IMG/VR virus record: IMGVR_UViG_3300032296_001640
Span: 1 to 26,673 of that record
Source: a virus
Length of the DNA: 26,673 nt
Reading direction: 5' to 3' (one strand)
The notes below the pieces were generated by a model. It searched no databases and had not been told where the DNA came from. It was given only the letters and a program-made list of their open reading frames with translations. The position numbers were made by a program, and so were the translations under genes. How positions within the stretch are numbered: the first letter of the stretch is position 1; each line of letters opens with the position of its first letter. Positions 14,635 through 23,170 of the stretch are shown piece after piece.

Positions 14635-14638
14635 ATAT

Positions 14639-14646
14639 CAAAGTTA
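14639..14646 (-). promoter_or_regulatory. TAnnTTTG -7 box before the late gene cluster
   Basis: The minus strand reads TAACTTTG, ending 4 bases before the ATG at 14634. It matches the Bacteroidota -7 consensus, but no TTG/TTTG box is found 17-23 bases upstream. It could be a late promoter that uses the phage sigma-like factor and yields a nearly leaderless transcript. An alternating TA tract lies at about 14682-14697. Confidence 0.35.
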
Positions 14647-14728
14647 CTAATTTTTTTAAGATAAGACCTAATTATTAATAGTTATATATATATATAAAGT
14701 AATTAATCTAGAGAATAGATCCTGAACC

Positions 14729-14781
14729 AAAAGGGAATGAGAATATCCTACTGACTTTTATATCAGTTATCACTCCCTTTT
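14729..14781 (-). terminator. Long bidirectional hairpin terminator
   Basis: AAAAGGGAATGA (14729-14740) pairs with TCACTCCCTTTT (14770-14781), 11 of 12 positions. An inner stem ACTGA/TCAGT (14750-14754, 14763-14767) stacks above it. Each strand ends the stem in CCCTTTT. On the minus strand it would close the candidate RNA gene that starts near 15065. Confidence 0.6.
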
Positions 14782-15065
14782 AATGATTAAGACAATCAAT
14801 CTGTCGAATGAGTCCCTCACCTTCAAGTTTCAAAGTGTCACCGATGACCTTTGACCTGGACACTACTTTAACACGATTCTCGGCTCGTGTGATGGTCTTG
14901 CGGCTTTGTCCTTAATGCTACCGCTGCGCTTTGCCATCATCCCCTTGTAACGCTACTCCTTTTACCCAAGCGTATTTACACCGCCAATAAAAAGAAAATC
15001 CCCCAATCATTATAACTGTTCAGAGCTAAAATGAAAGGGGGAATACCTAAAGCTTCTGAACACTA
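14782..15065 (-). ncRNA. Candidate structured non-coding RNA (unknown class)
   Basis: The gap 14635-15102 is the only gene-free stretch over 300 bp and is richer in G+C than neighbouring genes (about half at 14881-14940). Stems visible by eye: an interleaved pair TCCCCC/GGGGGA (14999-15004, 15037-15042) and TGTTCAGA/TCTGAACA (15017-15024, 15055-15062), giving a compact pseudoknot; ACGCT/AGCGT (14950-14954, 14969-14973); GCGG/CCGC (14900-14903, 14921-14924) inside GATGG/CCATC (14891-14895, 14934-14938); ACACGA/TCGTGT (14871-14876, 14885-14890); and a 10-bp stem at 14830-14854 with one bulge. A TAnnTTTG box precedes it and a hairpin terminator follows on the minus strand. Strand and function are inferred. 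No known RNA family (tmRNA, RNase P, SRP) was recognised. Confidence 0.45.
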
Positions 15066-15073
15066 CAAAGATA
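15066..15073 (-). promoter_or_regulatory. TAnnTTTG -7 box before the candidate RNA
   Basis: The minus strand reads TATCTTTG, an exact -7 consensus match, directly upstream of the pseudoknot (15062-14999). No clear -33 box lies at the usual distance. Its place at the 5' end of the structured stretch favours minus-strand transcription. Confidence 0.4.
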
Positions 15074-15102
15074 GTAATTCAGTGCAATGGTTGCTTATAA
15101 AG

Positions 15103-15300: not shown

Positions 15301-15794
15301 ATTCCTGATTTTCTTGATTTTCTTCCACGTTTTTTAGGTTGTGGGGTTTGTTCTTCAGTAAGTAGCACCTCTTCCCTTTTTAGTTGGTTATTGAGTTCGC
15401 TAATTATCTTATTTACGCAAGGCACACAACTGCTCGTCTTTGTGTTCGTACCCTTCATCAATGTGTCCAATTGCGTTAATAGCTTTCTATTGCCATCAGA
15501 TAAGACATTGGTGCGCTTTACCTCATCTACTAATTGCTTCGCTTGTTCTACCAGTTCTGCGTCTACAATTTTAGGCCACTTACCCGCAGGACAATCCGCA
15601 AAGGTCATCTTTGTTTTAAGGTCAAGAAAACACCCACACGGTTTGAAGGTCACTCCGTCTAGGGTTACGGGTTGGGAGAATGGGTTTAACTTGTTTAATG
15701 GCATCCCACACGTGCGAGTTGTGGAATTGTACACGGGGCATTCTATGCAGATATGCATCCGTTCATTTGCCATTTGGATAATCTTATTGATCAT
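15297..15794 (-). CDS. Cys-rich putative zinc-binding protein
   Basis: A 165-residue protein. The N-terminal 70 residues carry Cys16, Cys19 (HICIECP), Cys29, Cys53, Cys55 and Cys68, with a second CxxC at 123-126. This looks like a zinc- or iron-sulfur-binding unit. The C-terminus is strongly basic (PKKRGRKSRKSG), like an AT-hook or nucleic-acid-binding tail. It overlaps the sigma factor gene upstream and the membrane protein gene downstream (ATGA-type junctions). Similar Cys-rich proteins occur in Bacteroidota phages but without known function. A DNA- or RNA-binding regulatory partner of the sigma factor is a guess. Confidence 0.6.
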   Translation of the reverse strand: MINKIIQMANERMHICIECPVYNSTTRTCGMPLNKLNPFSQPVTLDGVTFKPCGCFLDLKTKMTFADCPAGKWPKIVDAELVEQAKQLVDEVKRTNVLSDGNRKLLTQLDTLMKGTNTKTSSCVPCVNKIISELNNQLKREEVLLTEEQTPQPKKRGRKSRKSGI

Positions 15795-16273
15795 ATTACA
15801 ATAGCTTTTCTTATTTCGTTTTTAGCGTATTTGACAAAGTTATAGAGTGCCTTCTTTGGGATTCCAGTCTCATCAGATAAGGTCTGATAACTGAAATCAT
15901 TTAAGGCATAAAGGTAAAAGACTTCACGCTCGAGCATTGGCAACCGTGAAATCAAGATATCTAATTGTTCATTGGTTATGCGATCACCTAACCACACCTC
16001 CACACTTTCAAAATCACGCAGTTGTGATTCAGTTGGTTCATCACTCATTTGATTGAACTTCCTGATAGTGTTATGGTAGTGGCTGCGATTAGACCAGTGC
16101 GCTATCTTTAATGCGTGGTTAATGTAATGTTCTGAATTCTTGATAGTGGATTTATTTTCGAAGATGCACAGTAGCGTATCGTGCAGAAGGTCATCTGCCT
16201 CATAGACATTGCCACCGCACAAGTTAATGGCTAACCTGCGATGTTGCTCATATTGCGCCCTTGAAATAATCAT
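15791..16273 (-). CDS. ECF-like phage sigma factor
   Basis: A 160-residue protein with the plan of an ECF sigma factor. Region 2 lies at about residues 7-60 (AINLCGGNVYEADDLLHDTL, with the acidic 'eADDLlhdtl' patch that contacts RNA polymerase). A linker follows at 75-100, then region 4 at about 103-155 (LPMLEREVFYLYALNDFSYQ, then TLSDETGIPKKAL, a helix-turn-helix that reads the -35-type element). It overlaps the VRR-NUC gene by 26 bases and the Cys-rich gene by 4. By position and direction it should be made before the late genes and direct their transcription, replacing the host -33 requirement. The late -7-only boxes at 14639-14646 and 15066-15073 would fit. Target promoters are inferred. 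Confidence 0.8.
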   Translation of the reverse strand: MIISRAQYEQHRRLAINLCGGNVYEADDLLHDTLLCIFENKSTIKNSEHYINHALKIAHWSNRSHYHNTIRKFNQMSDEPTESQLRDFESVEVWLGDRITNEQLDILISRLPMLEREVFYLYALNDFSYQTLSDETGIPKKALYNFVKYAKNEIRKAIVI

Positions 16274-18449: not shown

Positions 18450-18679
18450 AATTTCGAACACTAATTAAAACACACTTTGCCAATACGCAGGAATTCGCGA
18501 GAGCGATGGATGTAACGTGGCCAACTGGCAGGAAATACGAAAGCTATCCGCTAACGATGTCAATACACCATATCGAAAAGCTTTCAAAACTTATCAACGT
18601 GGACAAATGCGAATTGATTGAATTGGCAGTTGCTGAAAACGAAAACGAACACGAACCTTCAATTTACTGCAATGAATGA
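18446..18679 (+). CDS. Small HTH DNA-binding protein
   Basis: A 77-residue protein with a Cro/XRE-like helix-turn-helix at about residues 8-60: FANTQEFARAMDVTWPTGRK, then a helix near SIHHIEKLSKLINVDKCEL. The second helix and turn (TQEFARAMDVTWPTGRKYE) match the recognition part. The C-terminus is acidic. It lies in the early operon just before the DnaA-like gene and overlaps it by 8 bases, so it may regulate early transcription or replication. No divergent repressor-type operator is visible beside it. Confidence 0.65.
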   Translation: MKFRTLIKTHFANTQEFARAMDVTWPTGRKYESYPLTMSIHHIEKLSKLINVDKCELIELAVAENENEHEPSIYCNE

Positions 18680-19259
18680 TTTATTACTGAAGGTCATTGA
18701 CAATATGCGAGTTCAAAGTAAAAGTCAATTTAGAAACTTGCGTGAATTGTTAAACCCCGAACTAATTCCCGAACTACTCGAAAATTTAGATGAGTTGGTG
18801 GACAAATTTGATAGCCAAAAAACATTGAACGACATCCTTTACCAGTGCTGCGAGGAGGTGTATGGGGTTAGTCCTGAAGATATCCACGAAAAGTCACGCA
18901 AAAGAAACATTGTTGATGCACGTGGTATGTTTATTACGTTCCTTTTTTTAGCTGATGGTAATCTTACTTGGCAAAGGATTGCACAACAATTCGATCAAGA
19001 CCACGCTACCGCTATCCATTGCACTCGAAAGTTTTGTGAGTTGTATGGAACGGATGGGGAATACCAGTTCAATGCGAATCAATTTTTTGAAACGTTGGAA
19101 AAATATGGGTATAATTGCAAAGAAACTAAACGATTAATAAACTATGGACAACCTTACTTTACTCTCAAAGGTAGCATCACTGGAAGAGAGGATAAAAAGA
19201 CTCGAAGAACTACTCCCGAAGAAATTAGCCGTGTCGCATTTCATTGTGCCATCACTTGA
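18672..19259 (+). CDS. DnaA domain-IV-only protein, putative replication initiator
   Basis: A 195-residue protein. Residues 63-122 match DnaA domain IV, the double-stranded DNA-binding part: VSPEDIHEKSRKRNIVDARG, then LTWQRIAQQF, then the signature DQDHATAIHCTRKF. DnaA normally has an AAA+ ATPase domain before this, and it is absent here: the first 60 residues are helical without Walker motifs. It may mark the phage origin and recruit helicase loader or host DnaA. The open frame extends upstream to TTG (18618), but the ATG at 18672 fits the overlap with the HTH gene. The last 38 residues overlap the next gene by 116 bases and look less like a domain. Confidence 0.75.
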   Translation: MNDLLLKVIDNMRVQSKSQFRNLRELLNPELIPELLENLDELVDKFDSQKTLNDILYQCCEEVYGVSPEDIHEKSRKRNIVDARGMFITFLFLADGNLTWQRIAQQFDQDHATAIHCTRKFCELYGTDGEYQFNANQFFETLEKYGYNCKETKRLINYGQPYFTLKGSITGREDKKTRRTTPEEISRVAFHCAIT

Positions 19260-20237: not shown

Positions 20238-21089
20238 ATGGAATATGATTTATTTGGACAACCAATTATTAAAGATGAAATATTAAGAGATAAATTCATT
20301 GAACCACCTTTTAGTATTTTAGATACAAAAAGCGGTAATTGGCAAAAAAGAAAAAAGGCTTGGATTTCTAAAGGTATTCAAAGTGAAGTTGGAAGAGATG
20401 CAAAAGTTATAAATATGGATACAATAGCCAAAGAAAAAAACTCTGCTGAATATGTAAGTATTTTTGATCCTGCTCTTTGCGAAGTTTTATATCATTGGTT
20501 TTGTCCTCAAAATGGTAGTATTTTAGATCCATTTGCAGGCGGTTCGGTTCGTGGAATTGTAGCCAATTATTTAGGATATAATTATACTGGTATTGACATA
20601 AGGCAAGAACAAGTTGATAGTAATCGAGAACAAGCAATAGATATTTTACCAATAGATAAACAACCTCAATGGTATGTTGGAGACTCAAACGAAGTTTTAA
20701 ATGATTTCAATAAAGAATTTGATTTTGTTTTTTCTTGCCCTCCTTATGCTGATTTAGAAGTTTACAGTGATTTAAAAGGTGATATTTCGAATATGAATTA
20801 TATTGAATTTATGAAGGCTTATGAAAGTATCATTTATAAAAGTTGTAAGTTATTAAAAAAAGGTGGATACGCTTGTTTTGTCGTGGGAGAGGTGAGAGAT
20901 AAAAACGGTTATTATATTGGATTTGTCCCAGATACTATTAAAGCATTTGAAAAATGTGGTATGAAGTTTTACAATGAAGCTATTTTATTAAATGCTATTG
21001 CAAGTGCAAGTATGAGAGCAAACGGAAATATGAAAAGTCAAAAACTTGTTAAGGTTCATCAAAATATTTTAGTATTTAAAAAACCATAA
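20238..21089 (+). CDS. Phage DNA methyltransferase (N6A/N4C type)
   Basis: A 283-residue SAM-dependent methyltransferase. Motif I is DPFAGGSVRG (97-106) and motif IV, the catalytic loop, is SCPPY (166-170), so the order is I then IV as in alpha- or gamma-type amino-methyltransferases. SCPPY is a variant of the usual NPPY/SPPY. It transfers methyl groups to adenine or the amino group of cytosine and most likely protects phage DNA from host restriction. No partner endonuclease is nearby, so it is an orphan. Codons are noticeably more AT-rich than in the neighbouring terminase gene, which suggests separate acquisition. Recognition sequence unknown. Confidence 0.8.
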   Translation: MEYDLFGQPIIKDEILRDKFIEPPFSILDTKSGNWQKRKKAWISKGIQSEVGRDAKVINMDTIAKEKNSAEYVSIFDPALCEVLYHWFCPQNGSILDPFAGGSVRGIVANYLGYNYTGIDIRQEQVDSNREQAIDILPIDKQPQWYVGDSNEVLNDFNKEFDFVFSCPPYADLEVYSDLKGDISNMNYIEFMKAYESIIYKSCKLLKKGGYACFVVGEVRDKNGYYIGFVPDTIKAFEKCGMKFYNEAILLNAIASASMRANGNMKSQKLVKVHQNILVFKKP

Positions 21090-22382
21090 ATGAAAATTGA
21101 ATTTCACGAAAAGCAAATAGCAGCTCTCAACGCATTGGCAATAGATAGCGACATTAAACAAGTCCTTTACGGGGGTGGAGTTGGTGGAGGGAAAAGTTTT
21201 CTCGGATGCGATTGGCAAATAAAAAGACGGTTAAAGTACCCAGGTACACGTGGCCTCATTGGCCGTGCTGAATTAAAAAAGTTGCGATTAAGTACAATGC
21301 AAACATTCTTTGAATTGTGCGCTCATCATAATTTGATTGCAGGAAAACACTACAACTACAACGGACAAGACCACGTCATTACTTGGTTCAATGGAAGTCA
21401 GACAATCTTAATGGACTTGGCAGATACCCCATCAGATCCCGAATTTCAAAGGTTCGGTTCAATTGAGTTAACGGATTATTTTGTTGATGAAGCAGGGGAG
21501 GTGAGTGAAAAATGCGTGAATATCTTGGCCTCACGTGTGAGATACAAGTTAATCAATGACAAACCAAAGGGACTGCTAACCTGCAATCCGCATAAAGGAT
21601 GGCTCTATCGTGAATTCTTTGATGCTAAACGTAGCGGATTAATAAGGTCAGACCGTGAATTCATACAAGCTTTACCAACGGACAACCCGCACGTGTCACC
21701 AGTATATCTCGAATCTCTTTTATTACTGCCTGAAGTAGACCGCAAAAGACTTTTGGAGGGGGATTGGGACTACGATGAAACGAAAGATAGACTTTATGAA
21801 TACGATGACTTGTTAAGATGTTTCCGCACTCCTGCCAATTCCAACGTTGATAAGTTCATTACTGCCGACATTGCACGAATGGGAGACGACAGGACAGTTA
21901 TTGTCGTGTGGAATGGATTACACGCTGAAACATTTGTAGTCTTAAAACACAAACCAATTAACGAAGTTGTGGATACGATTAACCAGTTGGTAAAAAGTCA
22001 CGGTGTGAAGCTTTCAAATGTGCTTTGCGATGAGGATGGTATTGGTGGTGGTGCAGTTGACTACCTTAAATGCAAGGGATTTTTGAACGGATCAAAATCG
22101 GTGCGAGATAACTATATGAATCTTAAATCTGATTGCTATTTTAAGATGGGTGAACTCATCACAAATAACCTCATCACATTTGAGTCAACTCACAAAGATA
22201 CGATTGTCAAAGAACTGGAGATGATTCGCAGGGAGAAGTTGGATAGTGATGGAAAGTTAAGAGTGACTAACAAAGAGGACTTAAAAAAACGTCACGGAAT
22301 ATCTCCCGACTTTGCAGATGCAATAATGATGAGGGCATTTTATGAATTAAAAAAGAACTTTGGTAAATACGCATTCGCATGA
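21090..22382 (+). CDS. terL: Terminase large subunit
   Basis: A 430-residue DNA-packaging motor. Walker A is GGGVGGGKS (28-36), Walker B ends in DEAG (133-136, FVDEAG), and the coupling motif is TCNP (164-167). The nuclease domain has Asp260 (TADIARMGDDRT), Asp314 (LCDEDGIGGG) and Asp410 (SPDFADA), all expected metal ligands. Length is typical. It directly follows the methyltransferase stop codon, and its own TGA overlaps the next gene's ATG. Odd feature: it lies in the early plus-strand operon, opposite in strand to the head and tail genes, and no small subunit is next to it. Confidence 0.95.
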   Translation: MKIEFHEKQIAALNALAIDSDIKQVLYGGGVGGGKSFLGCDWQIKRRLKYPGTRGLIGRAELKKLRLSTMQTFFELCAHHNLIAGKHYNYNGQDHVITWFNGSQTILMDLADTPSDPEFQRFGSIELTDYFVDEAGEVSEKCVNILASRVRYKLINDKPKGLLTCNPHKGWLYREFFDAKRSGLIRSDREFIQALPTDNPHVSPVYLESLLLLPEVDRKRLLEGDWDYDETKDRLYEYDDLLRCFRTPANSNVDKFITADIARMGDDRTVIVVWNGLHAETFVVLKHKPINEVVDTINQLVKSHGVKLSNVLCDEDGIGGGAVDYLKCKGFLNGSKSVRDNYMNLKSDCYFKMGELITNNLITFESTHKDTIVKELEMIRREKLDSDGKLRVTNKEDLKKRHGISPDFADAIMMRAFYELKKNFGKYAFA

Positions 22383-23170
22383 TTATAGGTTGGTTTAGTT
22401 GTGGAGTGACATCCGCTATTGCTTGTAAATTAGCAATTGATGAATTTGGAAAAGACAATGTAAGATTGTTCTACATTGAAATCGATTCAGCACATAAAGA
22501 CAATGAACGCTTTATTTTAGATTGTGAAAAATGGATGGGTGTTAAAGTGGAAAGAAGAAGATGTATTAAATACAAAGACCAGTTTGATGTCATTGAACAA
22601 ATAAAATACGTTAATGGCCCAACTGGTGCTGCGTGTACAAAGGTTCTAAAAAAAGATGTGCGTATTGCAATTGAAAAAGAGGTTGAATTTGATGGACAAA
22701 TATTTGGTTTTGAATTCTCAAAAAAAGAAATTAATAGAGCCATTAGATTTGCTGAACAATACCCAAGTTCAAAACCATTATATCCGCTCATTGATAAGCA
22801 AATGACAAAGCAGCAATGCGCTGAATTGCTTTTAATGAATGGTATTGCATTGCCGAAAATGTATGAATTAGGATTTCATAACAACAATTGTATTGGTTGC
22901 GTTAAAGGTGGTAAAGGTTATTGGAATCACGTGCGTAAACACTTTCCAAATGAATTCGAAAGAATGGCAAAAGCTGAAAGAGTAGCTGGGCATTCGTGTA
23001 TCAAAAATAGATTCTTAGATGAACTGCAACATAATGAAGGTAAACACGAACCTCCAATTGTTCCCGACTGTGGAACATTTTGCGAAATTGAATTTGCAGA
23101 CCTTATTAGTCCCAATACCGAAAAGATTTTGAATGGCTACACAACTATCAAACAATTAAAATTATTTTGA
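22379..23170 (+). CDS. PAPS reductase-like PP-loop protein
   Basis: A 263-residue member of the adenine nucleotide alpha-hydrolase-like family (PAPS reductase/CysH type). The PP-loop is SCGVTS at 7-12, then SAHKDNERFILDCEKWMG, and GPTGAACTKVLKK (80-92). Cys171 and Cys174 (NNCIGCVKGGKG) and further Cys near the C-terminus may hold a metal or iron-sulfur centre. Phage proteins of this family could act in DNA or tRNA modification, or in sulfur metabolism; DndC-like phosphorothioation is one precedent but no dnd partners are seen. It overlaps terL by 4 bases. More AT-rich than terL. Substrate unknown. Confidence 0.75.
   Translation: MIIGWFSCGVTSAIACKLAIDEFGKDNVRLFYIEIDSAHKDNERFILDCEKWMGVKVERRRCIKYKDQFDVIEQIKYVNGPTGAACTKVLKKDVRIAIEKEVEFDGQIFGFEFSKKEINRAIRFAEQYPSSKPLYPLIDKQMTKQQCAELLLMNGIALPKMYELGFHNNNCIGCVKGGKGYWNHVRKHFPNEFERMAKAERVAGHSCIKNRFLDELQHNEGKHEPPIVPDCGTFCEIEFADLISPNTEKILNGYTTIKQLKLF

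Follow-up and report, generated by a model that had tools for sequence, protein, structure and literature searches.

A phage locus with a pseudoknotted 5' RNA head and exchangeable structured modules, a candidate trans-acting RNA gene

The phage contig IMGVR_UViG_3300032296_001640 of IMG/VR, analysed over its whole length (26.7 kb; 26,673 nt, hereafter the window), carries on its minus strand a locus made of two structured RNA units. The first is an H-type pseudoknot of about 75 nt, here called the head, in which, as covariation shows, the first 7-10 nt pair with a hairpin's apical loop; the second, here called module A, is replaced in related phages by one of three other modules, B, C or D. 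The structures of the head and of the modules are well supported. As to function, we favour on balance an independently transcribed phage RNA gene that acts in trans, composed of a putatively stabilising and attenuating 5' head and a presumed exchangeable effector.

All genes between 55 and 16643 of the window lie on the minus strand. A sigma factor gene (15791-16273) and a VRR-NUC nuclease gene are located upstream of the gap at 14635-15102, and the structural genes downstream of it. A first-pass annotation had described this gap as gene-free and placed it between two operons, that of the sigma factor and the late one; an ORF check gave no convincing ORF, and the position holds, on the same strand as the late operon. 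The core is richer in G+C than its flanks, as had been noted, by a small margin (0.465, most neighbouring windows having about 0.38-0.41). The source phage probably has a Bacteroidota host. A search of 84,980 genomes for the 118-aa gene that neighbours the RNA gave a single match (35%; L208 2466-2810, on a contig of a Candidatus Scalindua-binned MAG), and thus no host was assigned. BLAST likenesses to Bacillus, Prevotella, and Staphylococcus phages were discarded, as they cover an AT-repeat region past module A and not the RNA. Elsewhere in the window, on the plus strand, a DNA methylase is encoded near a PAPS-reductase/SspD-like protein (20238-21089 and 22379-23170), a possible DNA modification pair, and the protein at 18618-19259 has a DnaA C-terminal DNA-binding domain and perhaps a role in replication initiation.

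The first reading took 14729-15073 as one RNA closed by a strong hairpin terminator. A terminator-like T-run lies directly behind the pseudoknot, and the stretch therefore consists of two RNA units, the head and a module (Table 1). The supposed terminator (14776-14729) is an internal helix of module A, since conserved sequence continues beyond it.

Table 1. Features of the RNA locus in the window.
Feature	Positions	Strand	Evidence
-7 promoter box TATCTTTG, Bacteroidota sigma-A type	15066-15073	minus	sequence; box ahead of head in homologues
S1 5' strand GTTCAGA, at predicted transcript 5' end	15055-15061	minus	covariation with 15018-15024
S1 3' strand TCTGAAC, within apical loop of S2 hairpin	15018-15024	minus	covariation
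S2 5' strand TCCCCC-TT-TCATT	15030-15042	minus	covariation
S2 3' strand AATGA-TT-GGGGGA	14999-15011	minus	covariation
T-run after pseudoknot, doubling as 5' strand of module A P1	14989-14998	minus	T-run in detected heads; P1 covariation
Module A, second structured RNA, swapped for B, C or D in relatives	~14705-14994	minus	alignment A1, swap map
Module A P1, CTTTTTATTGGCG / CGCTTGGGTAAAAGG	14958-14994	minus	7 pairs changed on both sides
Module A P2, GCGTT / AGCGC	14926-14953	minus	GCGTT/AGCGC (A), GGGCA/AGCCC (A2), GAGCT/AGCTC (D)
Module A P3, GCGG / CCGC	14900-14924	minus	six alternative pairings across A/A2/D
Module A pseudoknot, P2 loop GATGG (14938-14934) with CCATC (14895-14891)	14891-14938	minus	A/A2/D comparison
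Hairpin ACACGA...TCGTGT	14871-14890	minus	CACGA/TCGTG to CGAGA/TCTCG in 9 of 21 homologues
Hairpin TCAAAGGTCA...TGACACTTTGA, helix 6	14830-14854	minus	covariation analysis of A1
Hairpin AAAAGGGAGTGA...TCATTCCCTTTT, internal helix 7	14729-14781	minus	covariation analysis; conservation on to ~14705

The set of homologous loci was assembled without reference to the RNA, by way of the 118-aa protein encoded beside it. Among the 26 distinct versions of the head, S1 and S2 were paired in 97.6% of cells and 8 of the 18 pairs had changed on both sides, with a covariation score of 0.304 against 0.087 for shuffled alignments and 0.039 for the best slid version. Pairs of S1 change between C-G and G-C, among G-C, A-U, C-G, and U-A, or among G-C, A-U, and U-A (variants include GTTCAGG/CCTGAAC, GTTGAGA/TCTCAAC, GTTCATG/CATGAAC, and GTTCACG/CGTGAAC). 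The outer pair of S2 changes among C-G, G-C, and U-A, and the inner stem between C-G and G-C and between A-U and G-C (TCAT/ATGA, TGAT/ATCA, TCGT/ACGA); a UU/UU step is conserved within S2. These 26 heads were selected by a regular expression that fixes GTT, CCCC, and GGGG, and invariance there is thus without weight; the covarying positions were free. The two interleaved stems proposed at 14999-15062 in the first-pass annotation were found at those positions, both covarying, and the covariation test that it had suggested was passed by the head, by module A, and by the core common to modules A, A2, and D. Folding energy was similar on both strands (z = -3.2 on the minus and -3.1 on the plus strand) and so settles by itself neither strand nor function; it is covariation that places all elements on one strand, the minus, and the compensatory changes bear out a structured, pseudoknotted RNA read from it, its transcription being predicted.

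The -7 box noted at the start of the element is present, but such boxes are no commoner in the window than expected by chance (35 found, 35.4 expected), and its support thus comes from conservation in homologues. In Flavobacterium, the TAnnTTTG box occupies positions -12 to -5 (PMC9723704), which would place the transcription start at 15061 on the minus strand, the first G of stem 1. The motif GGCAACCNTTG is conserved upstream of the -7 box, at 15085-15094 (minus strand) in the window and in many homologous heads, and occurs too in phages with unrelated pseudoknots; a phage factor may bind it. In one subgroup (L036, L048, L052, and L117), an inverted repeat, CTCAACACAA...TTGTGTTGAG, extends across the promoter and the beginning of S1 and may serve as an operator.

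Other phages were reached by searching with one downstream module, and there the sequence before the module is unrelated and the plan the same: a terminator-like hairpin precedes a T-run, and its apical loop is paired with the 5' end of the transcript. A generic detector was applied that requires a -7 box, a stretch near +1 with its reverse complement in the apical loop of a hairpin, and a T-rich tail next to it. Across 2.44 Mb it identified 198 sites (103 distinct), and in 0.6 Mb of block-shuffled sequence a single one; some of the 198 are double-counted because loci from one contig overlap. The complementarity and the T-rich tail are demanded by the detector, whose chance rate the shuffles supply, and the T-run in detected heads is partly such a requirement. 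By eye, about six or seven sequence types of head were recognised (GTT[CG]A/GTCAAA/GCCAAG; CAGGGTG; ATGTGTGA; CATGCGAC/ATGCGC; AATGCAA; GTGGAC; TACTCG), S1 and S2 being replaced completely between phage groups, and in most detected heads the beginning of stem 1 is no more than about one base away from the predicted +1. In L281 and L287, which have an unrelated head (TACTCG...CGAGTA), the RNA is transcribed away from the 118-aa gene.

Within 450 nt of the head, the slot holds exactly one module class (B in 46, A in 22, D in 20, and C in 14 of the 103 distinct heads); the single unclassified head is that of L281, where the contig ends. The GTT-type head precedes modules A, B, and C, unrelated heads precede B and C, and a diverged module C is found behind the TACTCG head of L287. 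Heads and modules thus appear to recombine.

Module A showed changes on both sides in 18 of 77 predicted pairs (alignment A1, 21 homologues), and its hand-drawn structure had a covariation score of 0.225 against 0.113 for shuffled alignments. An intermediate, module A2 (L269 and L284), links A and D, and across the three P2, P3, and the pseudoknot between the P2 loop and the stretch after P3 change together, forming a common covarying core. The P3 pairings are GCGG/CCGC, ACCG/CGGT, ATGG/CCAT, GGAG/CTCC, GAGG/CCTC, and GGGG/CCCC. The P2-loop pseudoknot, invariant among module A sequences alone, is GATGG/CCATC in A, TGTGT/ACACA in A2, and AGTAAC/GTTACT in D, where the register shifts by one base. 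With an insert between head and module (L056, L055, and L024), P1 uses another 5' strand and keeps its pairing, and the head keeps its own T-run nonetheless, which is the best evidence for a separate job of the T-run. Matches to the module-A pattern in L129 and L136 were dismissed as chance; they belong to unrelated phage contigs and lie in a stretch that is richer in G+C and apparently coding.

Module C is separate, and both sides had changed in 30 of its 94 pairs. Module B combines conserved hairpins with a polypyrimidine tract, and its proposed structure is less secure: it draws on covariation seen by hand (GCG/CGC to GCAG/CTGC; ATTGCC/GGCAA to TTTGGC/GCCAAA), and RNAalifold returned 4 pairs only on the mixed module-B alignment. 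The module-B pattern had 0 matches in bacterial genomes, and two module-B regions gave no match in a phage-wide BLAST. A protein-coding origin was rejected for module A and for module B, which has an ATG start in this phage group, as the frames are interrupted by indels or stops in relatives with pairing kept. The tract with which module B ends (L013 2367-2566 and other loci) follows a run of G, is about 60 nt long, and is conserved at the base level across divergent phages; it is possibly a binding platform or a Rho site.

Some loci have tRNA-like or other inserts between head and module. The tRNA-like ones (L056 5574-5666, L016, L024, L028, L017, L004, and L055 5259-5488) have intact acceptor, D, and T arms and an anticodon arm apparently unpaired or odd; ARAGORN called the L004 insert only, and Rfam two tRNAs in L055.

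A slot filled by one of four modules, sometimes with a tRNA-like insert ahead, argues for a diffusible modular RNA and not a single-gene switch. A trans-acting RNA gene is also supported by the covariation of the head helices and the retention of the design with unrelated sequences, by the covariation of A, of C, and of the A/A2/D core, by the start of stem 1 at or near the predicted +1 in most detected heads, and by the variety of the downstream genes, many of which have a -7 box of their own. In the mechanism we propose, a Bacteroidota-type promoter would start transcription at about 15061, and the first 7-10 nt would pair with the apical loop of the hairpin that ends in the T-run to form the pseudoknot head. 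This head would bury the 5' end and so stabilise the RNA, as in RydC (PMC4337610), and its hairpin and T-run would act as a leaky terminator, yielding two products, a short RNA of the head and a longer one that includes the module. The module, A in the window, would be the effector domain, most likely directed at a host or phage protein or at the translation or tRNA machinery. It counts against this proposal that no recognisable -7 box of the modules' own was found just behind the head, and modules would thus depend on read-through of the terminator-like T-run.

The genes that follow the RNA vary (small ORFs, the 118-aa gene, or a ParB-like gene), and a -7 box lies 19 nt past module A in 15 of 17 relatives, on which grounds a riboswitch or single-gene cis leader was rejected. 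In the window, the corresponding box lies instead 64 nt downstream of module A, so there may be a cis contribution here; a cis role may likewise follow from the position of the RNA in most loci, just upstream of and co-stranded with the following gene block. The first-pass annotation had hinted at a regulatory RNA or a leader of the late operon. The structured RNA stands, and the leader is kept as a rival and not as the best-supported reading: the head would serve as a terminator-attenuator and the module as an element for read-through or antitermination, by which the phage sigma factor or another factor would control read-through into the 14-kb late operon. We consider this distinctly less probable. 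The place between the sigma-factor and late operons, on the same strand, suits it, as does a hairpin and T-run right after the promoter, with the T-run doubling as a strand of P1. It is at odds with the -7 box of the 15 relatives, with the small ORFs that often separate the RNA from the late genes, and with the orientation of the RNA in L281 and L287, and it requires antitermination activity in all four unrelated modules. The late leader of lambda gives a 6S RNA ending at tR', and the put RNA of HK022 is an antitermination element; both resemble the present locus in being short structured RNAs that open a transcription unit near late genes with a terminator-like hairpin, whereas the present locus is usually followed by a separate promoter and has an exchangeable structured RNA of 200-350 nt in between.

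The best-studied analogue of the head is RydC, likewise an H-type pseudoknot in which UU steps are conserved and the tail is U-rich. RydC works with Hfq, and Bacteroidota are not generally known to possess this protein. The RydC pseudoknot is required for RNA stability in vivo, and RydC has UU steps and a U-tail (PMC4337610). RydC exposes a 5' seed, whereas in the head the 5' end itself is paired, and there is no sequence relation; the pseudoknot fold and the U-rich tail are present in the head, and its transcript size is predicted. The likeness raises the improbable alternative that the head alone is the product, a RydC-like sRNA of about 75-80 nt that ends at its own terminator and has mRNAs or an RNA-binding protein as its binding partners; the modules would then be separate or accessory RNAs. 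The T-run kept after the head of L056 in spite of the tRNA-like insert, together with the UU/UU of S2, would fit such an sRNA; the complete turnover of S1 and S2, unlike a fixed-seed sRNA, and a structural constraint on the modules as strong as that on the head would not.

Still less probable is a decoy or counter-defence locus, in which modules and tRNA-like inserts would mimic the targets of host defences (e.g., anticodon nucleases, RNA-sensing systems, or the toxins of type III toxin-antitoxin systems) and be exchanged as hosts change. The exchange of one of four modules at a fixed slot and the unusual anticodon arms of the inserts agree with this; exchange by itself is equally expected for other accessory RNAs, and nothing specific counted against it. 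The polypyrimidine tract and ATG-initiated frame of module B and an open frame through module A in some relatives might suggest that the stretch is no RNA gene but consists of decayed small genes or is a DNA element, such as an origin or a site of packaging or recombination. This is very improbable, given that the compensatory changes include G-U pairs, are confined to one strand and lie downstream of a promoter, and that module frames are broken in relatives with pairing kept. Two known RNA classes were also rejected: a type III toxin-antitoxin RNA, since there is a single head per locus with no tandem pseudoknots and no toxin among the tested neighbours (Pfam and PADLOC), and a guide RNA (omega RNA or tracrRNA), since no TnpB, IscB, or Cas was found among the Pfam and PADLOC matches of the tested window proteins.

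The preferred trans-acting RNA gene could, although we put this a little short of even, be a new kind of phage locus, with a universal expression head whose fold is selected and whose sequence is free, followed by at least four exchangeable structured effector RNAs. No description of a modular slot with a sequence-free head was found in Rfam or in the searched literature; phage structured RNAs near tRNAs are already known, and for modules A and D a known RNA is a probable relative. If the proposal is true, the locus would do for RNAs what a cassette slot does for proteins, two of its modules being distantly related to the Betaproteobacteria-1 RNA. A single fixed slot, present in an abundant family of phage contigs that are mostly from freshwater, holds at least four alternative RNAs behind one conserved design, a natural module-swap set for probing the roles of phage structured RNAs (GOLLD, ROOL, and Betaproteobacteria-1). 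The head shows that an architecture in which a 5' end pairs with a terminator loop can be under selection without conserved sequence, and for this reason is missed by ordinary homology searches.

In the Rfam comparison suggested at first reading, the window and 24 related loci had no match at the gathering score except the two tRNAs of L055; GOLLD and ROOL were without a match in any of them. In GOLLD, the 3' part is conserved, and the 5' part is variable and able to hold tRNAs (PMC12286853). Like GOLLD and ROOL, the present RNA is a large ornate phage RNA near tRNAs, here as tRNA-like inserts between head and module; those RNAs measure roughly 600-800 nt, against 200-350 nt here, and the variable part is 5' in GOLLD, whereas here the module is exchanged and not the head.

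The earlier remark that no known RNA family was recognised thus holds at threshold but has to be qualified, because the module is probably related, at a distance, to Betaproteobacteria-1 (RF02932). Scores for RF02932 were below its gathering score of 49.4 bits in the window (26.8), L284 (32.4), L277 (34.2), and L216 (37.9), with E-values of 4.5e-5 for the window when RF02932 was searched alone and of 5e-4 for L216 against the whole of Rfam. The matches fall at the same place in the A, A2, and D cores and cover the full model length, with the P1 and P2 blocks in order (CGG...ACGGCAGCG and CUGCGGGAUAG...GGCGAAG over model positions 1-120). Betaproteobacteria-1 shares with A, A2, and D a P1 like CGTCGG-N-TTTAACGACAGG, a P2 like AACTGTGGGATT, and the order P1-P2-P3. 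It differs in its length of 120 nt, against about 300 nt for modules A and D, in its P2 loop, which pairs within P3 and not after it, and in that a pseudoknot head precedes A and D. A reciprocal search of L288, the Acidovorax phage AP1 locus, with a model of the A/A2/D core (R1) missed the AP1 RNA and gave a 4.4-bit chance match elsewhere. In view of the sub-threshold scores and this failed search, modules A and D are regarded as probable distant relatives and not as members. A likeness of 10 bases between the Betaproteobacteria-1 consensus and 16S rRNA was judged to be expected by chance and was disregarded. No function for RF02932 was found in the searched literature, and this orphan family gains a phage home and probable distant relatives. 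BLAST with the Betaproteobacteria-1 consensus found it in one phage, AP1 (OM049504.1), a true member at 93.4 bits, where CGTCGG..TTTAACGACAGG and AACTGTGGGATT occur as they do in L269 and L284. The AP1 RNA, at L288 2476-2599, is unannotated and lies between the primase and hydrolase genes.
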